A DNA stretch of 50,607 bases from positions 1 through 50,607 of the IMG/VR virus record IMGVR_UViG_3300042554_001300; one strand, given 5' to 3'. Shown here piece after piece: positions 979 through 47,102 of the stretch (positions are counted from its first letter, which is position 1; each line of letters opens with the position of its first letter). The notes beneath the pieces were generated by a model. That model was not told where the DNA came from. It saw only the letters and a list, made by a program, of their open reading frames with translations, and did no database searches. The translations under genes were made by a program, and so were the position numbers. The stretch is from a virus.

Positions 979-981
979 CTG

Positions 982-1020: not shown

Positions 1021-1716
1021 ATGCTAAACAATAAATTTAACTATCACTCAATAAACCGACAAAGTATAGATGGAGTACGCTATTATGTTACTCCAAATGG
1101 TGATCGAGTTCCTTCGGTTACTACCATACTTGATCGCACTAAACCTGCAGAATCACGTCAAGCTCTGGCTGAATGGCGTCGTAGAGTAGGCGAGCAGCAA
1201 GCACAGGCTATTACCACAGAAGCGGCTGGACGTGGCACAAGAATGCACAAATGGCTGGAAACTTATGTGCAAACTGGTCTAGCAGGCACTCCTGGATCAC
1301 ATCCAGAAAGCCAACGCAGTCATCGAATGGCAATGAAGATCATTGAATCTGGTCTTTGTAATGTGTCTGAAGTATGGGGCAATGAAGTTCCACTGTATTT
1401 TCCAGAACTGTATGCTGGTACCACAGACTGTGTAGGCGTGCACAATGGTGAACAAGCTATTCTGGATTTTAAACAAAGCAACAAGCCCAAGCGCAGAGAA
1501 TGGGTTGATGATTATTTTCTACAAGTCACAGCTTATGCACTGGCACACAATGAAGTTTATGGCACCAACATACGCAAAGGTGTGATCATGATGTGTGTAA
1601 AGCCTGCCGACAATGCTGAACCAGAGTACCAAGAATTTGTCTTAGAACCCCAAGACTTTGATCATTGGACTCAACGTTGGTGTGATCGAGTCAGCGAGTA
1701 CTATCGCCTACGGTAA
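1021..1716 (+). CDS. PD-(D/E)XK (Cas4/RecB-like) exonuclease
   Basis: 231 residues. The conserved nuclease elements are visible: an early SVTTIL segment; GTRMHKWLE, supplying the first-helix His and Glu; AGTTDCVGV followed by ILDFKQS, which are the catalytic Asp and D-x-K; and LQVTAYALA, the Q-x-x-x-Y motif typical of RecB/Cas4 nucleases. Such proteins degrade or process DNA ends and are common in T4-like phages of aquatic bacteria. It has its own promoter at 982 and is followed by a late-promoter box at 1712. The substrate (host DNA or recombination intermediates) cannot be told from the sequence. Confidence 0.85.
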   Translation: MLNNKFNYHSINRQSIDGVRYYVTPNGDRVPSVTTILDRTKPAESRQALAEWRRRVGEQQAQAITTEAAGRGTRMHKWLETYVQTGLAGTPGSHPESQRSHRMAMKIIESGLCNVSEVWGNEVPLYFPELYAGTTDCVGVHNGEQAILDFKQSNKPKRREWVDDYFLQVTAYALAHNEVYGTNIRKGVIMMCVKPADNAEPEYQEFVLEPQDFDHWTQRWCDRVSEYYRLR

Positions 1717-1719
1717 ATA
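1712..1719 (+). promoter_or_regulatory. T4-like late promoter box
   Basis: GGTAAATA overlaps the end of the nuclease gene and lies 21 nt before the tail-spike start. T4 late promoters consist of a single TATAAATA-type box read by the gp55 sigma factor. The same TAAATA core recurs before other structural genes in the window. Confidence 0.55.
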
Positions 1720-1740
1720 CTCAATAGGGGACAGGATCAC

Positions 1741-18386: not shown

Positions 18387-19207
18387 AAATTTCGTACATG
18401 AGTGATTTGCATCTCGAGTTTGGTGACTTGGAGTTGCCAGGCGGGGATATACTTGTACTAGCCGGCGACGTTGCTGAAGTCAGGAACATTGAGGTTGCTT
18501 ATGATCCTGCGTTTGCTTCATTAGGTACAGAAATTACCAGACATGGGCGTCCAGATCGTGCTCGTAGGTTCTTTGAGGAAGAATGTGCCAAATATCGCCA
18601 AGTGTTCTATGTCATGGGCAACCACGAGCACTATCACGCTGAGTTTCTCGGCACAGAAGATCGTCTCCGAGCAGTTATGCCTGACAATATTAGACTAATG
18701 GAACTAGATGATGTTGTCATTGACGGCGTTCGTTTTCTAGGTTGCAGCTTATGGACTGATCTCAATGGTGATGATCCTGCCACTGCTAGTGTTCTGCGCG
18801 GAGTTATGAATGATTATCGTGTGGTCAAGTATCATAATCCAGCTAACAACGCATGGCACCGGCTGACTCCAGATATCACTCGTGGTGTTCATCGTGCTAG
18901 TGTAAATTGGTTGAAAGATAGACTGCGCGAACAGCTGACTACACCAACTGTGGTCATCACGCATCATGCTCCTAGTTTTCAAAGTATCCACCGAGACTAC
19001 GTACATGATCGTTTGATGAATGGTGGATATGCTAGTAATCTAGAGCAGATGATTCTAGATCACTCACAAATCAAAGTCTGGATTCATGGGCACATACATC
19101 AGCGCCAAGATTACCAAATTGGTCAATGCCGTGTCGTAGCTAATCCACGAGGATATCAAGGTTATGAACACATGGAGTTTGATACCACATGCAGCATCAA
19201 TCTTTAA
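18383..19207 (+). CDS. Calcineurin-like metallophosphoesterase
   Basis: 274 residues with all the metallophosphoesterase motifs in order: DLHLE (residues ~8-12), LAGDVAE, MGNHEHY, VVITHHAPS and the closing HGHIHQ. Binuclear metal ligands are therefore present. The substrate (cyclic nucleotide, nucleic acid or protein phosphate) cannot be told from the sequence. It is coupled by ATGA to the gene before and overlaps the next gene by 19 bp. Confidence 0.9.
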   Translation: MKISYMSDLHLEFGDLELPGGDILVLAGDVAEVRNIEVAYDPAFASLGTEITRHGRPDRARRFFEEECAKYRQVFYVMGNHEHYHAEFLGTEDRLRAVMPDNIRLMELDDVVIDGVRFLGCSLWTDLNGDDPATASVLRGVMNDYRVVKYHNPANNAWHRLTPDITRGVHRASVNWLKDRLREQLTTPTVVITHHAPSFQSIHRDYVHDRLMNGGYASNLEQMILDHSQIKVWIHGHIHQRQDYQIGQCRVVANPRGYQGYEHMEFDTTCSINL

Positions 19208-19422
19208 CAGTGGTGCGTGTGGCATGGAATTTGGATTCACCTACGCCCTGGAGTGAAGTTACAGCCAGGGCCATAGAATGTTTTGGGTTGCCCGGAGATC
19301 GGTATTTTACGCATCTAACACAAGATTTCATGGAGTACCATTTCCGCGACCCACATGATGCCACTTTGTTTGTGTTAGAGCATTCAGGAAATATCCATAT
19401 AGAAGTTGTAAAGGACTATTGA
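19189..19422 (+). CDS. Small protein resembling the F-x-L-R-W array family
   Basis: 77 residues ending RYFTHLTQDFMEYHFRDPHD then ATLFVLEHSG. The D-A-x-x-F-x-L core is the pattern that ends the short proteins of the 42-46 kb array (D-A-x-M-F-A-L-R-W), so this may be a distant relative placed elsewhere. It overlaps the phosphoesterase end by 19 bp. Function unknown. Confidence 0.55.
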   Translation: MQHQSLTVVRVAWNLDSPTPWSEVTARAIECFGLPGDRYFTHLTQDFMEYHFRDPHDATLFVLEHSGNIHIEVVKDY

Positions 19423-19428: not shown

Positions 19429-19578
19429 ATGCTTAGGTTCTACATTTGTTATTGTATATTTGCTTTTGTGTGCTCAATCATAACGGCCATGCTGATTTGG
19501 GATATGGCTATTGCCGACCACGAAGATATCACAGTTCCGGGCTATGTTGTACCCGTACAACAGACAATTACCACATGA
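19429..19578 (+). CDS. Small single-pass membrane peptide
   Basis: 49 residues, MLRFYICYCIFAFVCSIITA then MLIWDMAIADHED, with one N-terminal transmembrane helix and a short soluble tail. It overlaps the next gene by ATGA at 19575. No SD is obvious, but the clean coupling and TM composition support it. It may be a membrane-active accessory peptide; no family is recognised. Confidence 0.5.
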   Translation: MLRFYICYCIFAFVCSIITAMLIWDMAIADHEDITVPGYVVPVQQTITT

Positions 19579-19814
19579 TAGACATAAGATTGACAGGTGT
19601 AAGGATAGACACTATACTAGGCATTGTGCGTGATTTACGCCAAGCAGGGCTAGTACAAGGACGGGATTTTGATTTTGCCTATACGCCAGAGCGGCTAGAC
19701 TACAATCTAGCCACAGTAGGCGAAGTACTAGCAAAACGGCAAACGGTGTTCAGTTTTTACGATGATAGCCTGGCGTCGTGGTTTGGTATAAAATACGCAG
19801 ATTATTTGGCATAA
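19575..19814 (+). CDS. Small protein resembling the F-x-L-R-W array family
   Basis: 79 residues, MIDIRLTGVRIDTILGIVRD onward. The end TVFSFYDDSLASWFGIKYAD is similar in layout to the D-A-x-x-F-A-L-R-W end of the 42-46 kb proteins (acidic residue, small residue, aromatic, then K/R-W/Y). It begins in an ATGA overlap and is followed by two late-promoter-like boxes. Confidence 0.55.
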   Translation: MIDIRLTGVRIDTILGIVRDLRQAGLVQGRDFDFAYTPERLDYNLATVGEVLAKRQTVFSFYDDSLASWFGIKYADYLA

Positions 19815-20320: not shown

Positions 20321-20404
20321 GGAGATCGGGCGGCATTGGCGACCGCAGCTGACTGTAAATCAGTACTCTCTGAGCACGGGGTTCGAATCCCTGGATCTCC
20401 ACCA
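20321..20404 (+). tRNA. tRNA-Tyr (GTA)
   Basis: Acceptor GGAGATC/GATCTCC, anticodon loop CTGTAAA, long class II variable arm, T-arm with GTTCGAATCC, and encoded CCA. Confidence 0.95.
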
Positions 20405-20410
20405 TACACT

Positions 20411-20485
20411 GCACCCATCGTCTATCGGTTAGGACGCTAGACTTTCAATCTGGAAAGACGGGTTCGACTCCCGTTGGGTGTGCCA
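20411..20485 (+). tRNA. tRNA-Glu (TTC)
   Basis: Acceptor GCACCCA/TGGGTGT, anticodon loop CTTTCAA, T-loop TTCGACT, encoded CCA. Confidence 0.95.
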
Positions 20486-20490
20486 AACAT

Positions 20491-20566
20491 GTCGTAGAGA
20501 CCACCTGGAGGTGATGCCTGACTGTCTATCAGGTCGCGGCGGGTTCGATTCCCGTCTACGGCGCCA
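20491..20566 (+). tRNA. tRNA-Asp (GTC), first copy, atypical loop
   Basis: Acceptor GTCGTAG/CTACGGC (one wobble), anticodon loop CTGTCTA, encoded CCA. Position 37 is T rather than a purine and position 8 is not T, unlike the second Asp gene at 20659, so this copy may be diverged or specialised. Confidence 0.85.
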
Positions 20567-20574
20567 AACACGAT

Positions 20575-20652
20575 GCGGGTATAACTCAATTTGGTTAGAG
20601 TAACTGGCTTTTAACCAGTAAGTTCTTGGTTCGAGTCCAAGTGCCCGTACCA
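20575..20652 (+). tRNA. tRNA-Lys (TTT)
   Basis: Acceptor GCGGGTA/TGCCCGT with wobbles, anticodon loop CTTTTAA, T-arm CTTGG TTCGAGT CCAAG, encoded CCA. Confidence 0.93.
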
Positions 20653-20658
20653 TAATAT

Positions 20659-20733
20659 GGTCTGTTAGTTCATCGGTAAGAATAATGGCTTGTCACGCCA
20701 TAGAGACGGGTTCGACTCCCGTACAGACCGCCA
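20659..20733 (+). tRNA. tRNA-Asp (GTC), second copy
   Basis: Acceptor GGTCTGT/ACAGACC, anticodon loop TTGTCAC (typical Asp loop with A37), T-arm ACGGG TTCGACT CCCGT, encoded CCA. Confidence 0.93.
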
Positions 20734-20738
20734 AGTTA

Positions 20739-20813
20739 GGGGGATTAGTATAATTGGGAAAACACCGCGTTTGCACCGCGGAGTCATCGGTTCGAACCCG
20801 TTATCCTCCACCA
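20739..20813 (+). tRNA. tRNA-Ala (TGC)
   Basis: Acceptor GGGGGAT/ATCCTCC with one wobble, anticodon stem CCGCG/CGCGG and loop TTTGCAC, encoded CCA. Confidence 0.93.
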
Positions 20814-20819
20814 AGTAAT

Positions 20820-20893
20820 GTCTCTCAAGTGTTACGGTAGCACAGCAGCCTCCAAATCTGCGGGCCGGGGTTCGACTCCCTGGAGGGACGCCA
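20820..20893 (+). tRNA. tRNA-Trp (CCA)
   Basis: Acceptor GTCTCTC/GAGGGAC, anticodon loop CTCCAAA, T-arm GGGG TTCGACT CCCT, encoded CCA. Confidence 0.9.
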
Positions 20894-20899
20894 TTTATT

Positions 20900-20975
20900 G
20901 GTAATGTAGCATAGCGGCCAATGCGGTACCTTCATATGGTATCTATCGTAGGTTCGAGTCCTACCATTACCACCA
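20900..20975 (+). tRNA. tRNA with CAT anticodon (elongator Met or Ile2)
   Basis: Acceptor GGTAATG/CATTACC, anticodon loop TTCATAT, T-arm GTAGG TTCGAGT CCTAC, encoded CCA. A paired G1-C72 excludes an initiator. Met or lysidine-modified Ile cannot be separated by sequence alone. Confidence 0.9.
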
Positions 20976-20980
20976 CCCAT

Positions 20981-21075
20981 GGAGAGTGATGCAGGCGAGA
21001 TGGTTCGCCGACTAGTCTTGAAAACTAGGTTCCGCTGAAGAAGGGGATGGGGTTCGACTCCTCCGCTCTCCACCA
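20981..21075 (+). tRNA. tRNA-Ser (TGA)
   Basis: Class II tRNA: acceptor GGAGAGT/GCTCTCC, anticodon stem CTAGT/ACTAG with loop CTTGAAA, long variable arm, encoded CCA. Confidence 0.95.
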
Positions 21076-21080
21076 TCCAT

Positions 21081-21156
21081 GCCTGTTTAGCTCAGTTGGT
21101 AGAGCATTCGACCGATAATCGAAAGGTCTCTGGTTCGAACCCAGGAACAGGTACCA
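21081..21156 (+). tRNA. tRNA-Ile (GAT)
   Basis: Acceptor GCCTGTT/AACAGGT, D-arm TAGCTCAGTTGGTAGAGC, anticodon stem TTCGA/TCGAA with loop CCGATAA, encoded CCA. Position 33 reads C where U is nearly universal. Confidence 0.9.
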
Positions 21157-21163
21157 CGTCTAT

Positions 21164-21240
21164 TGGGGGTTCGCCAAGTCTGGTAAGGCAACGGATTTTG
21201 ATTCCGTTACGCATAGGTTCGAATCCTATACCCCCTTCCA
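21164..21240 (+). tRNA. tRNA-Gln (TTG)
   Basis: Acceptor TGGGGGT/ACCCCCT, with the weak first pair characteristic of tRNA-Gln (here T1 opposite T72), anticodon loop TTTTGAT, encoded CCA. Confidence 0.92.
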
Positions 21241-21246
21241 ACACAT

Positions 21247-21321
21247 GCTGATATAGATCAGGGGAAGATCGCTGACTTGGTAAGTCAGAGGCCGCAGGTT
21301 CAAATCCTGCTATCAGCACCA
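21247..21321 (+). tRNA. tRNA-Thr (GGT)
   Basis: Acceptor GCTGATA/TATCAGC, anticodon stem CTGAC/GTCAG with loop TTGGTAA, encoded CCA. Confidence 0.94.
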
Positions 21322-21326
21322 TGTAT

Positions 21327-21405
21327 GCCGCTTGAGCTAGTGTGGTCATTTCAGCACGAGTCTGAAGAACTCGAGAACTTGGTTCGATTCCAAGAGGCGG
21401 CACCA
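21327..21405 (+). tRNA. tRNA-Phe (GAA)
   Basis: Acceptor GCCGCTT/AGGCGGC, anticodon stem CGAGT/ACTCG with loop CTGAAGA, T-arm CTTGG TTCGATT CCAAG, encoded CCA. The D-loop is long. Confidence 0.92.
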
Positions 21406-21411
21406 TAATAT

Positions 21412-21486
21412 ACCACCGTAGTCTAATGGAAAGGCAACGCTCTTCTAAAGCGTCCTATGGGGGTTCGAATCCCTCCGGTGGTGCCA
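21412..21486 (+). tRNA. tRNA-Arg (TCT)
   Basis: Acceptor ACCACCG/CGGTGGT, anticodon stem ACGCT/AGCGT with loop CTTCTAA, encoded CCA. Confidence 0.94.
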
Positions 21487-21492
21487 ATCAAT

Positions 21493-21568
21493 GGTGACCT
21501 TAGTGTAGTGGTCTGCACCTCTCGTTGTGACCGAGAAAGTATGAGTTCAATCCTCATAGGTTACCCCA
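21493..21568 (+). tRNA. tRNA-His (GTG)
   Basis: Encoded extra G at -1 opposite C73, which is the histidine identity element; anticodon loop TTGTGAC; acceptor GTGACCT/AGGTTAC; encoded CCA. Confidence 0.93.
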
Positions 21569-21576
21569 ACAATACC

Positions 21577-21584
21577 ACTAAATA
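21577..21584 (+). promoter_or_regulatory. T4-like late promoter box, 5 nt before a start codon
   Basis: ACTAAATA with exactly 5 nt to the ATG at 21590 and no SD. Transcription would begin at the start codon. Confidence 0.55.
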
Positions 21585-21589
21585 TCACT

Positions 21590-22231
21590 ATGATCAAACC
21601 CACTGTGGCTGTGTTTGTGCATCATCCTGAATGCAGTGTACAAAGCGCACACGGCCTAATTCGAGCTCTTAGCGCAGAATATTCAGTACACTGTATTGAC
21701 AATCGATCTCTAACATCAACAGCACTCAGCAAATATGATCTTGTGTGTTTTCCTGGTGGCATTGGTGACAGTGATAGTTGGCATAAAATATGCGAATCAG
21801 GCGCAGATGCTGTGCGTGAGTATGTGGCCACTGGGGGTGCTTATTTAGGCATCTGCATGGGCGCATACTGGGCCGGACACCACTACTTCGACATTGTGCG
21901 TGGCATTGAGCCTGTGCAGTACATACGCAGAAAGAACACAGATATTAGGCGTAGTTTTGGTACTGTGGTCGCAGTTGACTGGCAGAAACACAGAGAATAC
22001 ATGTACTTTTATGATGGTTGTGCCTTGGTAGATCATGGCAGTCGACATCGAGTCATTGCTCGGTATACCAATGGTGACAGTGCTGCTGTCATACAAGGAC
22101 GCATTGGACTAATAGGCCCACACCCAGAAAGTGACGTCTATTGGTACAGCAAACCATACATGCAGCCTTACTGGCATGAATACCATCATCATACACTGTT
22201 AAGTGAATTTGTAGATCGTTTGATCTACTAG
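21590..22231 (+). CDS. Class I glutamine-amidotransferase-like (BPL_N-type) protein
   Basis: 213 residues. DLVCFPGGIGDSDSWHKICE and GGAYLGICMGAYWAG are the oxyanion-loop and nucleophile-elbow motifs of the class I amidotransferase/BPL_N fold (candidate nucleophile Cys in GICMG), and GPHPESDVYW supplies a C-terminal His. It may be an amidotransferase or a biotin-ligase N-domain-like hydrolase of unknown substrate. It is the only ordinary gene inside the tRNA array, preceded by a late box at 21577, and is probably a late moron-like insertion. Confidence 0.75.
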   Translation: MIKPTVAVFVHHPECSVQSAHGLIRALSAEYSVHCIDNRSLTSTALSKYDLVCFPGGIGDSDSWHKICESGADAVREYVATGGAYLGICMGAYWAGHHYFDIVRGIEPVQYIRRKNTDIRRSFGTVVAVDWQKHREYMYFYDGCALVDHGSRHRVIARYTNGDSAAVIQGRIGLIGPHPESDVYWYSKPYMQPYWHEYHHHTLLSEFVDRLIY

Positions 22232-22234
22232 ATT

Positions 22235-22311
22235 ACCACTGTAGCTCAGCTGAATAGAGCACTTGGCTACGAACCAAGGGGTCGTGGGTTTGAATCCTGC
22301 CAGTGGTGCCA
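22235..22311 (+). tRNA. tRNA-Arg (ACG)
   Basis: Acceptor ACCACTG/CAGTGGT, anticodon stem CTTGG/CCAAG with loop CTACGAA, encoded CCA. It follows the amidotransferase-like gene after 3 nt. Confidence 0.93.
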
Positions 22312-22318
22312 TATAGAG

Positions 22319-22347
22319 TTGACAACAAGGTGATTACTTGCTATAAT
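22319..22347 (+). promoter_or_regulatory. Consensus sigma70 promoter inside the tRNA array
   Basis: TTGACA at 22319-22324, 17 nt, TATAAT at 22342-22347; drives the tRNA-Ser(GCT), Asn and Cys group. Confidence 0.88.
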
Positions 22348-22391
22348 TACAGAAATAGCAGTAATCGTTCTTTAATAATAGCGTTGAATTT

Positions 22392-22483
22392 GGAGAGTTG
22401 GCCGAGCGGCTTAAGGCAGCAGGTTGCTAACCTGTCGATTCAGGAAACTGGGTCCGTGGGTTCGAATCCCACACTCTCCACCA
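22392..22483 (+). tRNA. tRNA-Ser (GCT)
   Basis: Class II: acceptor GGAGAGT/ACTCTCC, D-arm GGCCGAGCGGCTTAAGGC, loop TTGCTAA, long variable arm, encoded CCA. Confidence 0.95.
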
Positions 22484-22490
22484 AGACTGT

Positions 22491-22566
22491 TGTCCAGTAG
22501 ATCAGTCGGTAGATCAGCGGACTGTTAATCCGTGTGTCGGTGGTTCGAGCCCACCCTGGACAGCCA
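22491..22566 (+). tRNA. tRNA-Asn (GTT)
   Basis: Acceptor TGTCCAG/CTGGACA, anticodon loop CTGTTAA, T-arm GGTGG TTCGAGC CCACC, encoded CCA. Confidence 0.94.
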
Positions 22567-22572
22567 AACCAT

Positions 22573-22650
22573 AGTAGGGTGCCTGAGTGGCCAAAAGGAA
22601 CTGTCTGCAAAACAGTAAAGTCATCGGTTCGAATCCGATCCCTACTTCCA
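22573..22650 (+). tRNA. tRNA-Cys (GCA)
   Basis: Acceptor AGTAGGG/CCCTACT, anticodon stem ACTGT/ACAGT with loop CTGCAAA, encoded CCA. Confidence 0.94.
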
Positions 22651-22654
22651 AACA

Positions 22655-22690
22655 GGACGATTAGCTCAGTTGGTAGAGCGTTTTCTACGC
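22655..22690 (+). pseudogene. 5' half of a disrupted tRNA
   Basis: GGACGAT acceptor strand, then TAGCTCAGTTGGTAGAGCG, a standard D-arm, running into an anticodon-stem region that stops at TTTTCTACGC. No matching 3' half (needing ATCGTCC plus CCA) is found in the window. The next feature is a late-promoter box and an HNH gene, so the tRNA was cut near its anticodon by the insertion. Confidence 0.75.
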
Positions 22691-22695
22691 AAAAA

Positions 22696-22703
22696 CATAA
22701 ATA
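22696..22703 (+). promoter_or_regulatory. T4-like late promoter box for the HNH gene
   Basis: CATAAATA at the junction between the truncated tRNA and the HNH gene; AAAGGAG follows before the ATG at 22723. The same box occurs at the junction of the insertion at 31445. Confidence 0.6.
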
Positions 22704-22722
22704 CATTTGAGCAAAGGAGAAC

Positions 22723-23250
22723 ATGATGTTCAAGTGTAATGAATGTAACAAAGAGTTTGATCATCAGAGGGCATTAAATGCTCATCAAGTAGCACACAAG
22801 AAGATCAAAAGATATTCTGTAAGTAGGAAGAAAAAAGAAACAGAATATTTTACTTGTCTTAACTGTGGAACTGAAAAAGAAGTAGGTAGTTCGACTCGTA
22901 ATATGTTTTGTAGTAATTCTTGTGGAGGAGAATACCAACGCAAGCAAGCCAACGAACAAATTGAAAACGGCGAAGTTCTAGGCTTTTCTGTAATGCGTAG
23001 ATACTTGTTTGAAACCAGAGGCGTATGTGAAGAATGTGGAATAACTGATACTTACAACGGTAAGTCTATTACTTTACATTGCGATCATATTGACGGTAAT
23101 AGTGATAACAATGCGTTAGACAATTTACGATTGTTATGTCCTAACTGTCATAGTCAAACTGATACATGGTGCGGCCGTAATAAGAAAAACGCATCAAGAA
23201 ACAAGTATACAAGACAATGGAGACAAAGGGTCCTTAACTCAGTTGGTTAG
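22723..23250 (+). CDS. HNH homing endonuclease with N-terminal zinc finger, inserted in the tRNA array
   Basis: 175 residues. FKCNECNKEFDHQRALNAHQ is a C2H2 zinc finger, CLNCGTEKEV with FCSNSCGGEY a second Cys pair, and CEECGITDTYNG then LHCDHIDGNSDNNALDNLRL and CPNCH an HNH catalytic core. It starts 33 nt after the half tRNA at 22655, and its last 7 codons (RVLNSVG) and stop are encoded inside the downstream tRNA-Val, a 23-nt overlap. Inference: a mobile endonuclease that homes into tRNA loci. AAAGGAG fixes the start. Confidence 0.88.
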   Translation: MMFKCNECNKEFDHQRALNAHQVAHKKIKRYSVSRKKKETEYFTCLNCGTEKEVGSSTRNMFCSNSCGGEYQRKQANEQIENGEVLGFSVMRRYLFETRGVCEECGITDTYNGKSITLHCDHIDGNSDNNALDNLRLLCPNCHSQTDTWCGRNKKNASRNKYTRQWRQRVLNSVG

Positions 23251-23304
23251 AGTGCAATCTTTACACGGTTGAAGTCGTAGGTTCGAATCCTACAGGACCC
23301 ACCA
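23228..23304 (+). tRNA. tRNA-Val (TAC), overlapping the HNH gene
   Basis: Acceptor GGGTCCT/AGGACCC, D-arm TAACTCAGTTGGTTAGAGT, loop TTTACAC, T-arm GTAGG TTCGAAT CCTAC, encoded CCA. Its first 23 nt also encode the C-terminus of the HNH protein. Confidence 0.92.
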
Positions 23305-39899: not shown

Positions 39900-41864
39900 A
39901 TGAAACTGAAAACTCTAGTAGCGGCCATGGCCCTGGCCTTTGCTAATGTACATGGTCAAACCACGGAAACTCGAGCCACTGCTAGTTACTTGTCACAAGG
40001 TGGTGTTGCTCAAGCCTGGGCACGTGGCATCACTGGTCGCGGTGCTGTGATAGGCATAGTAGACAATGGTTTTGATCTTACCAACACAGATCTCGTGGGC
40101 AAAGTCATAGCCGCACAGAACTTTTATGGGTCAACAGTGACCTGGGGCACACATGGTACCATGATGGCCAGTATAGCTGCTGGTGCAGCCAATGGCTCAG
40201 GCACTGTGGGTGTGGCACCCGACGCTAAACTACTGTTGGCACAAGCAGGACCCGGCGGTGCCAACACTGCTATCAATGCTAGGTCAGTGGCCAGTGCCCT
40301 AGACTGGCTCAGCAGCTCAGGCGCTACTGTGATCAATCTCAGCATGGGTGCTGCTTATTCACCTACATTTATTAATTCGGTCAAGTTAAATACCAGAACC
40401 GGCATTTACTCAACCACGCTGCCAACCATGGATGCCAGCATTGCTGATTATCAAACAGCGGCCAGACGTGGTAGTGTGATTGTGGCCAGTGCCGGTAACC
40501 AAGGCCTAAGCTATGTACAAATGCCAGCTATATTTGCCAGCCAAACCAACACCAACAATCAGCTGATGTTGGGTGGGCGCATGATCATAGTAGGCAGTGT
40601 TGATGCCAACAATGCCATGGCCAGCTACAGCAATCGTGCAGGACATCTTTGTCAACGTCCTACGGGAACTGCCTGTGCAGACACTTATCTCACACAAAAC
40701 TTTTATGTGGTAGCACCTGGTAATAATCTATATGCTGCTGTGCCCAATCAGCTGGGTCAACGCGGCGCAGTGGCTACAACATCGGGCACCAGTGGATCAG
40801 CTGCTTATGTGTCTGGTGGCATTGCACTGATGCGTCAAGCATGGCCGCAACTAAAAGCAGAACAGTTGGTTAACTTGGTACTAACCACTGCACGTGATCT
40901 AGGCTCACCGGGCGCAGATGCCATATACGGACGTGGCCTGGTTGACTTTGCAGCGGCTACTAGACCACAAGGTCAGCTGATTGTAGCACAGCGCAATACT
41001 TCACTGTCAGGTAGCACAGTCACTGGTGCCGCATTAACTGGCACTGTGGCACTATTTCCTCTGAGCATTGTAAGAGATCTACGCAGTGACAGTGTGTTAC
41101 AACGTACACAGGTCATTGATCAGGTGGGTAGAAATTACACAGCTGATCTTGGACAGGCCTTGCTAGGACGCAGCTCAGCTAACCATAATCCCGAAAGTCC
41201 TTGGTTGGGCATGAACTCGTATCGCAGAGTCAGCATGCCTGTGTCGGAATCAATGGCCATGGATGTGCTCAGCACACAGGATGGTGTAGCTCTCCAAACT
41301 CAACATCAAAACTTTAGTGTACAGGTTGGCACTGTGTCAGAAAAATCTGGATTCTTGGGTAATTATGGCACAGGAGCCATGGCTCTGGGTTCAAGTGCAA
41401 CCAATTGGCTACAGTTTGGTCTAAATAAATCCATTATGCCAGACGTCGACTTTATAGCAAACTATGCTCAAGCCGTGACTCATGCTCAAAATGCCAGTGA
41501 CAGCATGATCACAGTGGATCCAGTGATTCAAAGTCGTAGCTGGCGTGCTGGCCTACGCTATCAAGACTTTACTGTGTCATATGGTATTCCTGTTTCTGTA
41601 ACTCGTGGTCGAGCTAGTATAACTGCGGTAACTGGCTATGACTATTTGGGCACAGAAGATGCTGTGCAGGCTGTGCCCATTGTTGAAACCAAAACCATGG
41701 ACCTAAAATTACCTGTACAAGAATACAATATTAGTGTAAACTATGCACGTTGGATCACTAAAACCAGCAGACTACAGGTTAATTATGTACATAGACTCAA
41801 CACCGGCGGTATATCGGGCTTGACAGCAGATTCATTGGGAGTTAACTTTACATGGATACAATGA
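39900..41864 (+). CDS. Exported subtilisin-like (S8) serine protease with an outer-membrane-like C-terminus
   Basis: 654 residues. The N-terminal signal peptide (MKLKTLVAAMALAFANVHGQ) directs export. The S8 catalytic triad is visible as VIGIVDNGFD (Asp, ~55), THGTMMASIAAG (His, ~83) and TSGTSGSAAYVSGG (Ser, ~298). The C-terminal ~250 residues are beta-rich and end in VNFTWIQ, resembling the last strand of an autotransporter barrel. Proteins with this layout are usually bacterial, so in a phage it may cleave host surface proteins. Overlaps the next gene by 13 bp. Confidence 0.85.
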   Translation: MKLKTLVAAMALAFANVHGQTTETRATASYLSQGGVAQAWARGITGRGAVIGIVDNGFDLTNTDLVGKVIAAQNFYGSTVTWGTHGTMMASIAAGAANGSGTVGVAPDAKLLLAQAGPGGANTAINARSVASALDWLSSSGATVINLSMGAAYSPTFINSVKLNTRTGIYSTTLPTMDASIADYQTAARRGSVIVASAGNQGLSYVQMPAIFASQTNTNNQLMLGGRMIIVGSVDANNAMASYSNRAGHLCQRPTGTACADTYLTQNFYVVAPGNNLYAAVPNQLGQRGAVATTSGTSGSAAYVSGGIALMRQAWPQLKAEQLVNLVLTTARDLGSPGADAIYGRGLVDFAAATRPQGQLIVAQRNTSLSGSTVTGAALTGTVALFPLSIVRDLRSDSVLQRTQVIDQVGRNYTADLGQALLGRSSANHNPESPWLGMNSYRRVSMPVSESMAMDVLSTQDGVALQTQHQNFSVQVGTVSEKSGFLGNYGTGAMALGSSATNWLQFGLNKSIMPDVDFIANYAQAVTHAQNASDSMITVDPVIQSRSWRAGLRYQDFTVSYGIPVSVTRGRASITAVTGYDYLGTEDAVQAVPIVETKTMDLKLPVQEYNISVNYARWITKTSRLQVNYVHRLNTGGISGLTADSLGVNFTWIQ

Positions 41865-42043
41865 CCAGGGAAGAATTAAACCAGCACTTGTACGCTCTGG
41901 TAGGCTCAGAAAGTCTAGTTAAACAATGGTGGATGACTCCTAATCGTAACTGGCAAGGTCGCGAACCTGAGGAGATTTGGGCTCGCAATCCTGATGAAGT
42001 CATTAAATACGTAATGAGATTTTGCTACGGTGACTATTCCTAA
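41852..42043 (+). CDS. MbcA/ParS-like antitoxin-fold small protein
   Basis: 63 residues. SESLVKQWWMTPNRNWQGRE and PEEIWARNPDEVIKYVMRF match the C-terminal half of MbcA/ParS/Xre (DUF2384) antitoxins (W-x-x-T-P-N ... G-x-x-P). No toxin is beside it. It is the first of a dense chain of small genes. Confidence 0.5.
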   Translation: MDTMTREELNQHLYALVGSESLVKQWWMTPNRNWQGREPEEIWARNPDEVIKYVMRFCYGDYS

Positions 42044-42242
42044 AGGGCGTTTTGTAGTATTTGATCGCGTGTATGGTATTCACCGCGGCGTAGTTATTAC
42101 AGACTTTGCTTGGTGGATTGGTAATGAAGATCTAGTGCGTGAGTGGTGCCTAGATAATCGCATACGCACACAACAACAGGGCATGGTCATACAATTTGAT
42201 GATGATGAATCATTTACGATGTTTATTCTACGCTGGAGTTAG
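42030..42242 (+). CDS. F-x-L-R-W array protein 1
   Basis: 70 residues ending DDDESFTMFILRWS. GTG start overlapping the previous gene by 14 bp. The family layout is N-terminal beta strand, a W-containing helix (REWCLDN), a strand and the acidic-x-x-M/L-F-x-L-R-W end. Function unknown. Confidence 0.65.
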   Translation: MTIPKGRFVVFDRVYGIHRGVVITDFAWWIGNEDLVREWCLDNRIRTQQQGMVIQFDDDESFTMFILRWS

Positions 42243-42244
42243 AC

Positions 42245-42517
42245 TTGGACAAATATCGATACTGGAGTATGCTACGAGGAGCCTATCAAGATTACCATAG
42301 GGCTCAAGAAGGAACTAAGATACGCTTGTCCATGCAGGCTCAAGAAGGCACTAAGATACGCTTACCCATGCACAAGGATTTTGTTTCTTGGATGTTGGAG
42401 CAATGGGGCATCAAAGTACACACAGATCCTCTTGGATATACAGAATACTTTGATATTGCAGACGAACACAAATACTTACTATTCGAGTTGAAATATGCAG
42501 GCCATAAAGATACCTAA
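42245..42517 (+). CDS. F-x-L-R-W array protein 2, with internal duplication
   Basis: Up to 90 residues from TTG at 42245, with CTGGAG upstream; ATG at 42269 is an alternative start. The segment AQEGTKIRLSM is repeated as AQEGTKIRLPM from a 36-bp tandem duplication (42302-42373). Ends LLFELKYAGHKDT, a variant of the family end. Confidence 0.55.
   Translation: MDKYRYWSMLRGAYQDYHRAQEGTKIRLSMQAQEGTKIRLPMHKDFVSWMLEQWGIKVHTDPLGYTEYFDIADEHKYLLFELKYAGHKDT
42302..42373 (+). repeat. 36-bp tandem duplication
   Basis: Two adjacent 36-bp units starting GGCTCAAGAAGG differ at a few positions and encode the repeated AQEGTKIRL. Confidence 0.85.
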
Positions 42518-42704
42518 AGAACGACTTCATCTCAAACAGGAGATGATTGCGTGGTGCTTGGCAAATGTGGGACCAGGCGGCACAAGATTACCAGATTACA
42601 CTCAACAGGGTGACTATTGGGGTGTAGACCAGTATAATAGTGGTACATTTTTCTTTTTTGTGGTACCTGAAGATGGCACACTATTCGCACTCCGCTGGCT
42701 CTAA
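42495..42704 (+). CDS. F-x-L-R-W array protein 3
   Basis: 69 residues, MQAIKIPKERLHLKQEMIAW onward, ending VVPEDGTLFALRWL. It overlaps the previous gene by 23 bp. Confidence 0.65.
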   Translation: MQAIKIPKERLHLKQEMIAWCLANVGPGGTRLPDYTQQGDYWGVDQYNSGTFFFFVVPEDGTLFALRWL

Positions 42705-42728
42705 ACACATCAAGACCAAGCCTTACTC

Positions 42729-42902
42729 ATGCTACAGAAGTCTCTATATAATCATAAGTGGCAATACAACGGTCGAGCACCCATGGATGAAATTCGTGAC
42801 TGGTGTCGGCAGAACATCAAAGGTCATAGTTATCTAGGTTGGGAAACTATTTGGTTCGCTCGTGAGCAGGACTATGTGTTGTTCCTATTGAGGTGGTCGT
42901 GA
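42729..42902 (+). CDS. F-x-L-R-W array protein 4 (57 residues)
   Basis: MLQKSLYNHKWQYNGRAPMD, then EIRDWCRQNIKG and an end FAREQDYVLFLLRWS. Its last codons TTG AGG TGG TCG TGA supply an SD-like AGGTGG for the next gene. Confidence 0.65.
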   Translation: MLQKSLYNHKWQYNGRAPMDEIRDWCRQNIKGHSYLGWETIWFAREQDYVLFLLRWS

Positions 42903-42904
42903 GA

Positions 42905-43108
42905 ATGTTAAAGAAAGAATCGTGGCCCTATAGGATTGTGATCAACGATGATGAACACAGCAATAATATCGAGCAAGTGGAGCGTTGGCTAGGCGAGCAT
43001 GTAGGTGCTTTTAGGCAACGCTGGAATGCGGTATATCTATTTGATGAAACACATTTTTATTTTGTTTCAGATCAGGATGCTGCGATGTTTGCCTTGAGGT
43101 GGGCATGA
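42905..43108 (+). CDS. F-x-L-R-W array protein 5
   Basis: 67 residues from the ATG at 42905; a GTG at 42893 is an alternative start. Ends FVSDQDAAMFALRWA. The upstream AGGTGG, encoding R-W of protein 4, sits about 9 nt before the ATG. Confidence 0.65.
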   Translation: MLKKESWPYRIVINDDEHSNNIEQVERWLGEHVGAFRQRWNAVYLFDETHFYFVSDQDAAMFALRWA

Positions 43109-43326
43109 TTGGATTTTATTTAGCCGGCGAACTAAGACATTGTCCTAGGCATTGGCAAAATTTTATATACTCAAATCGAAACATCAAAGGTGTATCCATC
43201 AAAAGACTCAACCGACTACTAGAGCCATATGGAGCAAGGTATGTTCCAGCCAACTCGGCGGAACCTGATGCTGTTATCTTTGAACAAGAAGTTGGGCTAA
43301 CTTTGTTTTATTTGAGGTGGTCATGA
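43105..43326 (+). CDS. F-x-L-R-W array protein 6
   Basis: 73 residues, MIGFYLAGELRHCPRHWQNF onward, ending EVGLTLFYLRWS. ATGA overlap with the previous gene and GAGGTGGGC as SD; the next gene follows with the same junction. Confidence 0.7.
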   Translation: MIGFYLAGELRHCPRHWQNFIYSNRNIKGVSIKRLNRLLEPYGARYVPANSAEPDAVIFEQEVGLTLFYLRWS

Positions 43327-43529
43327 GTAAGCGAGATTGGTGTACGATTCCAGTGCGGGTACCATATCGTAGCACAGGTCAATGGCGTGATCTGCGTCTA
43401 TGGCTGATAGAAAATGTCCATGACATGGACTATGATGCTGCTGGTGTAGATTTACAGGATTATGATCGGAGAGTCGTTTATTTTGCTAGGTCACGAGATG
43501 CTGTCATGTTTGCCTTGAGGTGGTCATGA
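43323..43529 (+). CDS. F-x-L-R-W array protein 7
   Basis: 68 residues, MSKRDWCTIPVRVPYRSTGQ onward, ending FARSRDAVMFALRWS. The junction TTGAGGTGGTCATGA includes SD, stop and start in 15 nt. Confidence 0.72.
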   Translation: MSKRDWCTIPVRVPYRSTGQWRDLRLWLIENVHDMDYDAAGVDLQDYDRRVVYFARSRDAVMFALRWS

Positions 43530-43792
43530 AAGATTGTATTAGGGATTTTGTAGAATCTTGGCGACCCTATGATGGACCGAGAAGCCTTACAATTCCTGTT
43601 TGGAGTACAAGATTTCGAGATGCTGGATATTATAGTGTGCCCTTGACCGATAATAATCTCATACACCATTGGCAGCATGTTCATCGATGGTGTGAGCACG
43701 AGTTTGGCGAGAGACACTATACCTGGACTGGAAATATTTTTTGGTTTGAAACCGAGGAGGCAGCAGCATGGTTCGCTCTACGCTGGCAGTAG
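43526..43792 (+). CDS. F-x-L-R-W array protein 8
   Basis: 88 residues with an extra N-terminal segment, ending ETEEAAAWFALRWQ. The same ATGA junction from protein 7. Confidence 0.7.
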   Translation: MKDCIRDFVESWRPYDGPRSLTIPVWSTRFRDAGYYSVPLTDNNLIHHWQHVHRWCEHEFGERHYTWTGNIFWFETEEAAAWFALRWQ

Positions 43793-43986
43793 AAAATTGG
43801 GTGGATTTGCCTGTGCCTGTGGCATTTGCTGGCCCCAAAAACAGATATGAGCCACTGGAATGGGCCAAGCAACATTGCCCCAGTTATATCACCAATGATG
43901 CTGTTCAAAAGCATGGTGAGTATTACTATCGTTTCTACTTTGGTCGTGAACAAGATCGCATGTGGTTCGCCCTAAAATGGCTTTGA
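43768..43986 (+). CDS. F-x-L-R-W array protein 9
   Basis: 72 residues, ending FGREQDRMWFALKWL. The ATG at 43768 has a perfect AGGAGG 7 nt upstream, encoded by the E-E of protein 8, so the 25-bp overlap is supported. Confidence 0.7.
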   Translation: MVRSTLAVENWVDLPVPVAFAGPKNRYEPLEWAKQHCPSYITNDAVQKHGEYYYRFYFGREQDRMWFALKWL

Positions 43987-44192
43987 CAGTTCCAGGTAAA
44001 CCATATACAATAGCAGTAGATCCTGCTGCCAATATCACAGAAGAATCTGAGTTATTTGACTGGGTTCAATTAAATATTGGTAAGTATGGCCTAGAATGGG
44101 AAGTTTCATATGATCACGATATCGACCGCACAGTGTATTATTTTCCAACTGAACAGCAGGCCTTGTTATTTGCACTAAGGTGGGCACAATGA
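43977..44192 (+). CDS. F-x-L-R-W array protein 10
   Basis: 71 residues, MALTVPGKPYTIAVDPAANI onward, ending FPTEQQALLFALRWAQ. ATG at 43977 overlaps the previous gene by 10 bp; an upstream GTG at 43962 is an alternative. Confidence 0.68.
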   Translation: MALTVPGKPYTIAVDPAANITEESELFDWVQLNIGKYGLEWEVSYDHDIDRTVYYFPTEQQALLFALRWAQ

Positions 44193-44437
44193 CTCAACGA
44201 TATCCTATTTGTGATCAAGACACTGGGCGTTTCTTCCCTTGGTGGAAAAACTTTGTACAGTCACTGGGCAACTTCGACTTGGGTTCTTCGGACTTTGTAT
44301 TTGAACGAGATCGTGTATTAAGGTCGGTGGATGCCAGATTTGTACTAGATTGGTCTGACGATGCCAAGGCTTTTGAGCGAGCAGTAGAGTTTGAGGATGC
44401 CAACGCTGGCCTTATGTTTATATTAAAATGGAGTTGA
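44189..44437 (+). CDS. F-x-L-R-W array protein 11
   Basis: 82 residues, MTQRYPICDQDTGRFFPWWK onward, ending DANAGLMFILKWS. ATGA overlap; AAGGTGG from the upstream gene provides the SD. Confidence 0.68.
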   Translation: MTQRYPICDQDTGRFFPWWKNFVQSLGNFDLGSSDFVFERDRVLRSVDARFVLDWSDDAKAFERAVEFEDANAGLMFILKWS

Positions 44438-44604
44438 CAGTAGCATCAGTAAGTTGTCCCCCAGGACAACAAGGATGGACACCTTGCATAGAATGGTGCC
44501 AGCAACAATGGGGCGATTCAGATTGTTGGCGTTTTGTGGGCGAGGGAGTATTTGAATTTCGCCGCCAAGAGGATTTCATGTTATTTTTATTGAAATGGAG
44601 CTAA
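44428..44604 (+). CDS. F-x-L-R-W array protein 12 (58 residues)
   Basis: MELTVASVSCPPGQQGWTPC then CIEWCQQQWG and an end RRQEDFMLFLLKWS. The start lies in the upstream KWS codons (AAATGGAGT), overlapping by 10 bp. Confidence 0.65.
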   Translation: MELTVASVSCPPGQQGWTPCIEWCQQQWGDSDCWRFVGEGVFEFRRQEDFMLFLLKWS

Positions 44605-44605
44605 T

Positions 44606-44779
44606 ATGTACAAGTATCAATTATGGGTGAAGATAAACGAATACCAAACTGCTAATACCGTTGTGTACGCAGAAAATGATTATGCCGCCAAATTACTAGG
44701 TGAGTCACAGTATGGCACAGGCAATGTACTTAACTATACTCGCTTGCCTGATCCGCCACAAGAAAATTCAAACTGGTAA
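44606..44779 (+). CDS. Small protein within the array, not of the F-x-L-R-W type
   Basis: 57 residues, MYKYQLWVKINEYQTANTVV onward to ENSNW. AATGGAGCTAAT precedes the ATG, giving GGAG as SD. It is joined to the next gene by TAATG. Confidence 0.55.
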   Translation: MYKYQLWVKINEYQTANTVVYAENDYAAKLLGESQYGTGNVLNYTRLPDPPQENSNW

Positions 44780-45000
44780 TGGCCTGGCATAGAATAACAA
44801 GGACGGGCAAGTACCACTGGCTACAGTGTGGCATGTTTGCGGACTCAAAGCCAATGGAATTCAAATTGATCACTGAGTCTGATCTAGATCAAGTTGGAGC
44901 GTGGTGTCAGGATAACAACTGTGGACAGCGTATGAGTTTCGATCAATTTAGATTTCGCACTGAAGCCGAAGTCACTGCGTTTCTGCTGCGTTGGGGTTAA
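44779..45000 (+). CDS. F-x-L-R-W array protein 13
   Basis: 73 residues ending FRTEAEVTAFLLRWG. It has the central W helix (VGAWCQDNN) typical of the family. Confidence 0.68.
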   Translation: MAWHRITRTGKYHWLQCGMFADSKPMEFKLITESDLDQVGAWCQDNNCGQRMSFDQFRFRTEAEVTAFLLRWG

Positions 45001-45002
45001 CC

Positions 45003-45344
45003 ATGTCTAGGTTTGATGAAATTGATGTCAACAAATATTATCCTAGACCGCACTTGGTCAAGCTCGATGGTAGATATCGCGGTCATGGGCATTTTCGCTG
45101 GATGATGGACTGTGGTGCTAATCGTCTGGCGTTTCTCAAGATACGCGAGTGGTGTACTGAGGCATGGGGACTTAGTGAGGAACTAGATTTATGGGAGCAT
45201 CTCTGGTATGGCGTCAGCGATGACACCAGGCACCTAGCCAATCCGCACTGGGCTTGGTTATTTGACACCAATTACCCAGTTAAGTGTAAAATATACATAC
45301 GAGATGATGATGAACTAGCTTGGTATAAATTAAAATGGACATAG
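45003..45344 (+). CDS. F-x-L-R-W array protein 14, long form
   Basis: 113 residues, MSRFDEIDVNKYYPRPHLVK onward, ending IRDDDELAWYKLKWT. ATG at 45003 is preferred to a TTG at 44991. Overlaps the next gene by 10 bp. Confidence 0.65.
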   Translation: MSRFDEIDVNKYYPRPHLVKLDGRYRGHGHFRWMMDCGANRLAFLKIREWCTEAWGLSEELDLWEHLWYGVSDDTRHLANPHWAWLFDTNYPVKCKIYIRDDDELAWYKLKWT

Positions 45345-45643
45345 CCACACGACAGCAATTTGTGGAGTACTGGAATCGAGTCAAGCCGGGGTTAGGCGAC
45401 GATAGCAGCGAGTTATGGGTACATGAACGCGAGTTCAAGTATCGTTCAGAGTGGTTTATTGCCGTTGAACCTTTGGTCTGGGCCGATCCTGAATCATTTT
45501 GGGAATGGTGTGATGAGAATTTATCAGGCACATGCGGTTGCTACAGCAGTGATGATGAAAATAAGATTGAGTGGTGGGGTTTCTCCAACAGGGATGATGT
45601 CATAATATGGGCTCTAAAATGGTGCGATGGCAACGCCGTTTGA
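45335..45643 (+). CDS. F-x-L-R-W array protein 15
   Basis: 102 residues, with LVWADPESFWEWCDENLSG and an end SNRDDVIIWALKWCDGNAV, an extension beyond the motif. ATG at 45335 lies in the upstream KWT codons. Confidence 0.65.
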   Translation: MDIATRQQFVEYWNRVKPGLGDDSSELWVHEREFKYRSEWFIAVEPLVWADPESFWEWCDENLSGTCGCYSSDDENKIEWWGFSNRDDVIIWALKWCDGNAV

Positions 45644-45936
45644 TGTTTCGATTCTGTAAGAAAACCATGATCATGGTGCGTTGGCCAATTGGTGCCGTCA
45701 TGGTAGAAGACGATCATGCGAAGTGGGATTCCGGCCTGGGCACAGTACGACAAGAAATCTACAGTGCCGATCCCAACGATCACTATCGCCCTGAACTAGA
45801 ACGACTAGTGGGCGAACAGGGCCTAGATTGGCAGTGGCATTATCCCGTTGACAACATGGCCGACACACACATAGGCATAGAATTTGCTCCATGGCGTGAA
45901 TCCTGGGCCAGTTATTTTGCTATGAAATGGAACTAA
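45643..45936 (+). CDS. F-x-L-R-W array protein 16
   Basis: About 97 residues from the ATG at 45643 (TGATG overlap); ATGs at 45607 and 45619 would give up to 109. Ends PWRESWASYFAMKWN. The start is uncertain. Confidence 0.6.
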   Translation: MFRFCKKTMIMVRWPIGAVMVEDDHAKWDSGLGTVRQEIYSADPNDHYRPELERLVGEQGLDWQWHYPVDNMADTHIGIEFAPWRESWASYFAMKWN

Positions 45937-45937
45937 T

Positions 45938-46258
45938 ATGAAATGTTTACCTAAATACACACATAAAATTACCGAAGTTCGCATACCTGTTCGCCATGAT
46001 CCTGTTCGGGATTGGTCTAGTTATCGCGAAATCTCACACTCCACTCAGGACCTGCGGCATGAACCTGGCTTGGAACTCTTAATGACTCATAGCAAAGCCC
46101 AGTTATTGGACAATCATCTACGCGAATTAAACCACTATCAACATGAACGCTACATGAACCAGATTGAAATAAGCAGAGAACTTGACCTCAGACTGCGTGT
46201 TCCTGCTGTGGCAGCAGCCTGGGATCATTATCAACTCATGCTGAAATTGGCTCAATAA
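45938..46258 (+). CDS. Small conserved-looking phage protein
   Basis: 106 residues, mostly helical (LLMTHSKAQLLDNHLRELNH), ending VAAAWDHYQLMLKLAQ. The ending resembles small uncharacterised T4-like phage proteins. It starts 1 nt after the array's last gene and is followed by a late box. Confidence 0.6.
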   Translation: MKCLPKYTHKITEVRIPVRHDPVRDWSSYREISHSTQDLRHEPGLELLMTHSKAQLLDNHLRELNHYQHERYMNQIEISRELDLRLRVPAVAAAWDHYQLMLKLAQ

Positions 46259-46264
46259 TAAATA
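46257..46264 (+). promoter_or_regulatory. T4-like late promoter box
   Basis: AATAAATA followed after 4 nt by the ATG at 46269. Confidence 0.55.
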
Positions 46265-46268
46265 TAGG

Positions 46269-47012
46269 ATGCGAGCACGAGAATTTACAGAAGCACTTGA
46301 CCAACCCTATTACCTACATTGGGAACACAGCACAGACGGTGATGTAAGTGCTGTAGCAGAATTACCTGCCAATGAAGGGCACATACACATTTTGTTTGAA
46401 CCCTATCGAGATAACAAAGATGGTTCGGTAGCTTGGGGAGTAGAGTTTTGGCGAAATGACAGCCAGGACATCACCGGCGAGGGCGATGAATTCCGTGTGT
46501 TTGCCACTGTGTTACAGGCCGTATCTGAGTTTGTAGCAAAATATAAGCCCATGAATTTGTCTTTTACAGCAACTAAAAAAGTTGACCAAGGACAAAAATC
46601 ACTGAGTCGTGCTAATTTATATGATAGATTAGTTCAGCGTTATGCTCGGGCATCGGGATACCGAGCATTTAGGGCCGATGCTGGTAATAATGTTCACTAT
46701 GAATTGGTTAAAATAAACAAAGGTGTGGCGGAAGGTGCCATGAAAGATCTTGACATTGATATCCAAGATCAACAATGGGACGCCGTAGTAGGCTATGTCG
46801 TCAACGGTGTGAAAAAAGGCATGGACACAGACCGTATGGAATTGTCTCTGTACAAATGGGCCAGTCGAGAATTAGTTGATGTTGAACAAGCATTAGAAGA
46901 TCATGGATTCCGCGACATAGCAGATTTAGCTGATCACATAGAGCAACACAATGGCAGATATGTACCGCCCAGTGACTTTGGGCTAGGCAATTTGGGCAGC
47001 AAATCCGCATAA
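46269..47012 (+). CDS. Candidate head-packaged protein with a capsid-targeting-like N-terminus
   Basis: 247 residues beginning MRAREFTEA, closely resembling the T4 capsid-targeting leader (MKTYQEFIAE|A) and the start of the gene at 595. Beyond that it has two parts: an alpha/beta N-terminal region (HIHILFEPYRDNKDGSVAWG and a SRANLYDRLVQRYARASGYR helix) and a helical C-terminal region (ELSLYKWASRELVDVEQALE). It has a late promoter box and is followed by a terminator. Inference: packaged in the head and injected. Confidence 0.7.
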   Translation: MRAREFTEALDQPYYLHWEHSTDGDVSAVAELPANEGHIHILFEPYRDNKDGSVAWGVEFWRNDSQDITGEGDEFRVFATVLQAVSEFVAKYKPMNLSFTATKKVDQGQKSLSRANLYDRLVQRYARASGYRAFRADAGNNVHYELVKINKGVAEGAMKDLDIDIQDQQWDAVVGYVVNGVKKGMDTDRMELSLYKWASRELVDVEQALEDHGFRDIADLADHIEQHNGRYVPPSDFGLGNLGSKSA

Positions 47013-47051
47013 AAATCCAAATTTGGATGTTGTTTTCCCACAACACATCTC

Positions 47052-47093
47052 AATAACCCGCCAGTTGTGCGGGTTATTCATTTGTGCTATACT
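47052..47093 (+). terminator. Terminator with an embedded promoter
   Basis: AATAACCCGC / GCGGGTTATT (10 bp, 47052-47061 with 47069-47078) plus CATTT closes the upstream gene. TTGTGC at 47065-47070 lies within the hairpin and, 17 nt later, TATACT at 47088-47093, as at 39595. Confidence 0.8.
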
Positions 47094-47102
47094 ATGATCA
47101 TA

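Follow-up and report, generated by a model that had tools for sequence, protein, structure and literature searches.

A tandem array of small phage genes whose common protein ending forms the joint to the next gene and may mark where genes are exchanged

Why should a run of small phage genes end, gene after gene, in the same few residues? The question is raised by positions 42030-45936 of a 50,607-base uncultured virus record (IMG/VR record IMGVR_UViG_3300042554_001300), which was analyzed at its full length and is called the window here. A preliminary description, made from the letters alone, had reported about 16 genes of one small paralogous family at this place and had taken such repeated duplication in one phage to suggest diversification under selection, for example of anti-defense or host-inhibitory proteins. 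The array itself held up in count and coordinates: 16 small genes on the + strand share the C-terminal motif F-x-L-[RK]-W, 12 in strict and 4 in degenerate form. The strict form (stop-to-stop open reading frames of at least 40 amino acids ending in F.L[RK]W plus 0-3 residues) was found in 12 open reading frames, all on the + strand and all between 42030 and 45000; none lay elsewhere in the window or on the minus strand, and sixty 2-mer-block shuffles of the window sequence gave no motif-ending open reading frame. The degenerate members (at 42245, 45003, 45335 and 45619) each have homologs in loci of other phages that carry the array family, and several of these homologs have recognizable endings, e.g., MFTLKWS and IAALRWS. 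The array is better explained as a shuffled bank of coupled genes than by recent duplication under diversifying selection.

We consider it fairly likely that accessory mini-genes of a T4-like phage form a translationally coupled array at this locus, shuffled by recombination at the joint between its genes. Each gene of the polycistronic array would encode a single beta-alpha-beta-beta-alpha domain with F-x-L-[RK]-W at its end, and the codons of this ending would constitute the joint to the next gene, either as L-R-W-S-stop (TTGAGGTGGTCATGA) or as an ATG-bearing L-K-W. Ribosomes terminating on one gene could reinitiate on the next, and homology between joints could drive homologous or annealing recombination that adds, removes or exchanges whole genes, each left intact with its ribosome-binding site. 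Exchange would proceed by whole genes because one joint of 15-35 bp recurs at many gene ends.

The codons TTG AGG TGG TCA TGA (L-R-W-S-stop) hold a strong Shine-Dalgarno site as well as the ATGA with which the following gene starts, and the L-K-W codons (AAATGG) are able to hold the next gene's ATG. By the general rule for pairing with the 16S tail, GAGGUGGUC can be predicted to pair over nine bases with one wobble. Four joints of the window consist of [CT]TATTGAGGTGG or a similar stretch followed by TCATGA, GCATGA or TCGTGA; they encode Leu-Arg-Trp-Ser/Ala-stop in one frame and contain a Shine-Dalgarno sequence, and in three of the four, the next gene also starts there at an ATGA. All four joints lie on the + strand, at 42882..42902 (TTCCTATTGAGGTGGTCGTGA, the Shine-Dalgarno sequence for the ATG at 42905), 43088..43108 (TTTGCCTTGAGGTGGGCATGA, with the ATGA start of gene w07), 43306..43326 (TTTTATTTGAGGTGGTCATGA) and 43509..43529 (TTTGCCTTGAGGTGGTCATGA, with the ATGA start of gene w09). 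The wild-type joint sequence is TTGAGGTGG, with CTGCGTTGG as its synonymous counterpart. The whole window has four copies of TGAGGTGG, each at a joint, and the best direct repeats of the array region are the joints.

The family is far more widespread than one phage, with relatives in no fewer than a hundred further uncultured phages. At least 120 stretches of viral contigs matched a degenerate DNA pattern that encodes F-x4-[DE]-A-x2-F-A-L-R-W, and in many of them 5 to 18 such genes follow one another. A profile made from these matches found at least 589 members, and two further fetches brought the set to at least 964 members in at least 209 environmental phage loci (overlapping copies and near-identical strains included; 187 once contained copies were removed). 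Arrays of the same motif in other phages, a search for which had been suggested in the preliminary description, were thus found in many places. When whole contigs were searched, the highest count was 36 members, on a contig of 240 kb, and a contig of 519 kb had 32; true arrays are longer than counted because diverged members escaped the profile. The next ATG lies at -6..+1 of the stop in 247 of 455 motif-bearing members. Among coupled members, whose next ATG overlaps the stop, the motif Arg is encoded by AGG in 206 of 228 and, in an enlarged set, in 300 of 336 (89%), compared to an AGG share of 8% in the remaining genes of these loci. If the [RK]-W codons contain the next ATG, the [RK] codon always ends in A (AGA, AAA or CGA), since reading an ATG across it demands an A. 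The predicted anti-Shine-Dalgarno pairing energy at coupled starts has a mean of -8.0 kcal/mol (median, -10.4), compared to -3.6 kcal/mol at other gene starts and -2.8 at random sites. With the L-R-W residues masked in the profile, the motif is retained by 228 of 251 coupled and 47 of 69 uncoupled members. The latter count rules out that the motif is a ribosome-binding site only; it is therefore a feature of the protein itself and was recruited for coupling.

The distinct members of the first fetch fell into 33 subfamilies of three or more. Subfamilies present in other phages include eleven window genes, namely ten array genes and the dispersed gene at 19189; by BLAST, a homolog elsewhere was found for 16 of the 18 genes of the array and dispersed set. 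Most window genes are by these comparisons separate old lineages, each with orthologs in other phages, and repeated recent duplication in one phage is not supported. The order of the subfamilies is near a random permutation (105 adjacencies observed versus 96 +/- 5). At 50-65% protein identity, neighbors are still adjacent in 40-44% of family pairs versus 84-94% of nonfamily pairs, and below 50% identity, the values are 15-18% versus 44-57%. The fast turnover concerns gene content and order. The proposed diversification under selection was likewise not borne out: in two groups of close relatives, the dN/dS values of family members were 0.35 and 0.21 (other genes there, 0.19 and 0.17), so that members are under purifying, somewhat relaxed selection and it is content and order that vary instead. 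Over whole genes, there was no sign of positive selection in these two groups, and it was rejected at these values.

Close relatives, with blocks mostly 85-99% identical, were compared at the breakpoints; a block lacking in one locus is a pairwise difference, gain or loss alike. L050, L122, L116, L123 and L205 differ from their relatives by whole-gene blocks of 278-2370 bp with 9-35 bp of identity at the joint. L050 is without 563 and 446 bp found in L092 and L047 (breakpoint identity of 22 and 32 bp), L122 without 1753 bp (21 bp), L116 without 2370 bp (20 bp) and 278 bp (9 bp), and L205 without 1148 or 1680 bp found in L202 or L204 (35 bp). In each of these indels, the stretch shared at the breakpoints covers the last part of a gene and the first part of the gene that follows. 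The window gene at 43323 has 90-92% DNA identity to genes of L028 and L078, and this block starts at the joint (43313). Within arrays, 176 of 242 homology-block ends (73%) fall at -25..+5 of a family stop, compared to 11% expected, and the joints of paralogs are more alike within a phage than between phages (z = 6.7).

Several observations weigh against a causal role of the joint. Outside arrays, block ends also favor gene stops (37% versus 3% expected), so gene-end breakpoints are a general trait of these genomes. The enrichment of breakpoints in arrays is therefore not specific, and the argument from it is weakened; what remains as specific evidence is that the shared joint is long, that reshuffling is faster and that joints are alike within a phage, the last of which may be explained in part by phage-specific codon bias. 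Indels outside arrays likewise carry short direct repeats, and several of the pairwise indels are a single event observed in more than one strain. Purging of broken genes by selection would alone leave mainly breakpoints at joints, and the joint identity, instead of causing recombination, could follow from homology and from the ribosome-binding site. The motif is retained by roughly two in three uncoupled members, so it is not solely a ribosome-binding site.

These points lead to the rival explanations. Were the ending conserved as protein only, for packing of the last helix, coupling and repeat would be by-products of dense gene packing, and the turnover would be generic. The survival of the motif in uncoupled members, its place where the predicted second helix ends, the breakpoints at gene ends outside arrays and the commonness of ATGA overlaps in prokaryotes (PMC6728339) are consistent with this account; a protein would, however, need neither the excess of AGG codons over background nor strong Shine-Dalgarno energies, and family neighbors are reshuffled far faster than others at equal divergence. 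We regard it as unlikely. Still less probable, in our judgment, is a bank of anti-defense or host-takeover effectors under positive diversifying selection. The genes are small, variable and accessory and are freely gained and lost, as such a bank would have it, whereas the dN/dS values speak against positive selection over whole genes, the PADLOC library (mainly models of defense rather than anti-defense) matched none of 55 diverse members, and no characterized relative was found. It is least probable that the members are subunits of one hetero-oligomeric machine, such as a nucleic-acid-binding or virion complex, coupled for coassembly. The common fold predicted for two subfamilies would agree with that, as would the frequent coding of heteromeric complex subunits by overlapping unidirectional gene pairs (PMC10666635); yet set, number and order vary among close relatives, and single subfamilies are gained or lost on their own, whereas a fixed complex would be expected to hold its stoichiometry.

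Against this background, the shuffled, coupled array remains our preferred explanation. As to its function, the gene content suggests, with some hesitation on our part, an effector bank for host takeover or counterdefense; this would fit because the proteins are small and accessory, conserved per subfamily and freely gained and lost. Each subfamily might then bind a different host or defense target, a proposal that we hold as tentatively as the bank itself. A fixed multisubunit complex fits less well. We put forward even more cautiously that the motif could be a three-way element, which would serve as the last helix of one protein, give the following gene its ribosome-binding site and start and act as a recombination site for trading intact genes in any order; the array would then be a coding-sequence counterpart of a gene-cassette system and a bank of interchangeable effector domains. 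If the joint does drive exchange, a protein motif has been recruited as translation signal and recombination site, and gene content can thereby change without breaking expression. Most genes of large phages are small, unknown and variable. For a large unnamed family among them, a fold is now predicted in two subfamilies, orthologous subfamilies are defined and a rule of joining and swapping can be seen; the subfamily catalogue delimits the proteins that could be screened for host or defense targets.

Several known systems resemble the array in part. Promoter early stem-loop (PeSL) cassettes of T4-like phages were reportedly described by Arbiol et al. in 2010 and Comeau et al. in 2014. PeSLs are promoter and stem-loop repeats between genes that, as cited in a later source, are said to shuffle accessory genes among T4-like phages (PMC4503421). 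As far as that account goes, a short repeat at exchange boundaries is common to both (here, the whole-gene indels with 9-35 bp of joint identity), and the difference is that the repeat here lies within coding sequence, constitutes ribosome-binding site and start and joins the genes of one family. We see this link as an analogy of mechanism, not as membership: the intergenic promoter and stem-loop of PeSLs were not found at the array joints, which have no intergenic space. Promoter-like sites numbered 21 in 41700-47100 (13.6 +/- 3.4 expected), and just one terminator-like stem (43085-43106) lies on a TGAGGTGG joint. In L191, L147, L150 and others, indels outside the arrays are flanked by 20- to 49-bp repeats, e.g., AAAAGTTGACATATAGATAA, which look like promoter elements and may point to shuffling of the PeSL type in these phages as well. 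Gene pairs that overlap in ATGA and have an internal Shine-Dalgarno sequence are common, and coupling was shown in 13 of 14 tested cases (PMC6728339). The ATGA/TGATG pairs of that study overlap by four bases, with the Shine-Dalgarno motif inside the upstream gene at its 3′ end, and stop/start overlap with an upstream Shine-Dalgarno sequence is found in the array family too; there, single pairs are concerned, whereas here a repeated joint is fixed by a protein motif across a shuffled array of paralogs. Bacillus phage G has a lineage-specific expansion of about 35 zinc-ribbon proteins of unknown function (PMC7824862), likewise one small domain greatly expanded in a jumbo phage; its fold and family are different, and the accessible part of that source describes no coding joint. 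Integron gene cassettes, with attC sites and an integrase, come to mind because the genes behave like cassettes; the joints here are direct repeats in coding sequence. In the open-licence literature, family and joint are unreported as far as we found.

AlphaFold models of two distant subfamilies, which are the scope of the fold evidence, have the order strand-helix-strand-strand-helix in common. Modeled were the window protein at 42905-43105 (pLDDT 91) and a protein of subfamily 8 (pLDDT 80), and in both, the C-terminal motif lies at the end of the second helix. The unrelated folds that would have spoken against one family were not seen. A fold search of the PDB gave nothing significant (top fragments included T7 DNA polymerase and KH domains, E > 0.6). 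A Foldseek search of the viral structure library BFVD returned mainly uncharacterized proteins of uncultured Caudovirales phages (E 7e-4; top TM 0.67-0.84), which by structural likeness probably belong to the same family; their entries describe neither function nor array.

Among the same 55 diverse members, Pfam gave one subthreshold match only (zf-CGNR) and PHROGs three single matches without described function (best E, 1.6e-4). The statement of the preliminary description that no role is assigned still applies, as no Pfam, PHROGs or PADLOC family covers the members. DNA mimicry was considered and set aside: the sequence match to the DNA mimic DMP12 (E 0.41) amounts to chance, and the median pI of 5.8 is no strong signature. 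Proteins of 260-290 amino acids at 135-1007 of L255 and 237-1019 of L256 have the family domain fused to an N-terminal region, a possible functional clue; the remaining part of the 290-amino-acid L255 fusion, whose domain is C terminal, matched no family. Eight reference phages (including T4, phiKZ, cyanophages, Xanthomonas X1, Stenotrophomonas IME-SM1 and DSL-LC04) contained no member at E 0.01. Agrobacterium phage Atu_ph07 gave distant profile matches to the hypothetical proteins AUZ95034 and AUZ95037 (E = 6e-6 and 5e-5); these share distant homology with the family and differ in having no F-x-L-R-W ending and no array of such genes at that site. A tblastn search with two members (one a consensus from relatives) found no meaningful match among 50,697 isolated phages. 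In 84,980 cellular genomes, the DNA pattern had 43 matches, 42 of them without any family member. The sole cellular array, 14 members in 3.5 kb, is on L247, a contig of a metagenome-assembled genome that is probably a stray phage contig. It spans 160-3693 under a Bacteroidetes label and consists mostly of one local subfamily (WW.NF...SMFILRWS) that looks locally amplified.

The run had been placed correctly in the window, and several gene starts had not: GTG or TTG starts were replaced by an ATG overlapping the previous stop or within its K-W codons (43105, 43323, 43526, 43978, 44189, 44428, 45335 and 45619). All array genes are on the + strand. w02 (42030..42242, FILRWS) has a GTG start overlapping the previous gene and homologs in 15 loci. 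w03 (42245..42517, degenerate, FELKYAGHKDT) contains an in-frame 36-nucleotide tandem duplication at 42301-42372, two copies of 12 residues that are 92% identical and look recent; the ATG of w04 (42495..42704, FALRWL) lies within its K-Y codons. w05 (42729..42902, FLLRWS, subfamily 10) and w09 (43526..43792, FALRWQ, subfamily 14) have homologs of at most 66% identity in 23 and 19 loci, respectively, and w06 (42905..43108, FALRWA, subfamily 3), the modeled window protein, has homologs in 30. w07 (43105..43326, FYLRWS), whose ATG is in an ATGA overlap, is 48-51% identical to genes of L202, L204 and L205, and w08 (43323..43529, FALRWS, subfamily 9) has 82-85% amino acid identity in L202-L206. Homologs of w10 (43768..43986, FALKWL, subfamily 4) occur in 19 loci, and its K-W codons (aaATGG) hold the ATG of w11 (43978..44192, FALRWAQ). 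w12 (44189..44437, FILKWS) starts in an ATGA overlap and is a member by motif, with no BLAST homolog; the ATG of w13 (44428..44604, FLLKWS, subfamily 2) lies within its K-W codons. The earlier statement that nearly every gene of the run is a member is right for these 16; the small gene at 44606..44779 (+ strand), inside the run and 73% identical in L202, L204 and L209, is not one. w15 (44779..45000, FLLRWG, subfamily 15) has homologs in 11 loci. The run ends with three degenerate members, w16 (45003..45344, YKLKWT; 14 loci), w17 (45335..45643, WALKWCDGNAV; 10 loci) and w18 (45619..45936, YFAMKWN; 23 loci), of which w17 and w18 each start at an ATG within the K-W codons of the gene before. The two more distant relatives named earlier are indeed dispersed members on the + strand: w20 (19189..19422, subfamily 8, with a diverged C terminus) has relatives in 100 fetched loci, 78 loci having been fetched with a relative of this gene, and w21 (19575..19814, subfamily 13) has relatives in 76. 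The relatives of both are often within arrays.

The window is taken as a piece of a T4-like phage, probably a jumbo phage. Its ribonucleotide reductase is nearest to those of Xanthomonas phage X1 (61%) and Stenotrophomonas phages, and a large structural protein is similar to cyanophage baseplate proteins. Of 25 tRNA genes, 19 are densely packed at 20321-23304; the gene inserted in this cluster at 21590-22231 reads as glutamine-amidotransferase-like and had no PHROGs match. Used as queries, the neighboring gene at 46269 found only two short relatives, neither with an array, and the subtilase gene found none. The subtilase (39900-41864; Peptidase_S8, E 3e-37) is encoded immediately upstream of the array, and its long C-terminal region looks outer-membrane-like by sequence. 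The last codons of its gene overlap the ATG of the next, a small nonmember gene at 41852-42043 just before the array run, whose product has a weak, subthreshold match to an Xre/MbcA/ParS antitoxin toxin-binding domain (E 0.0033).

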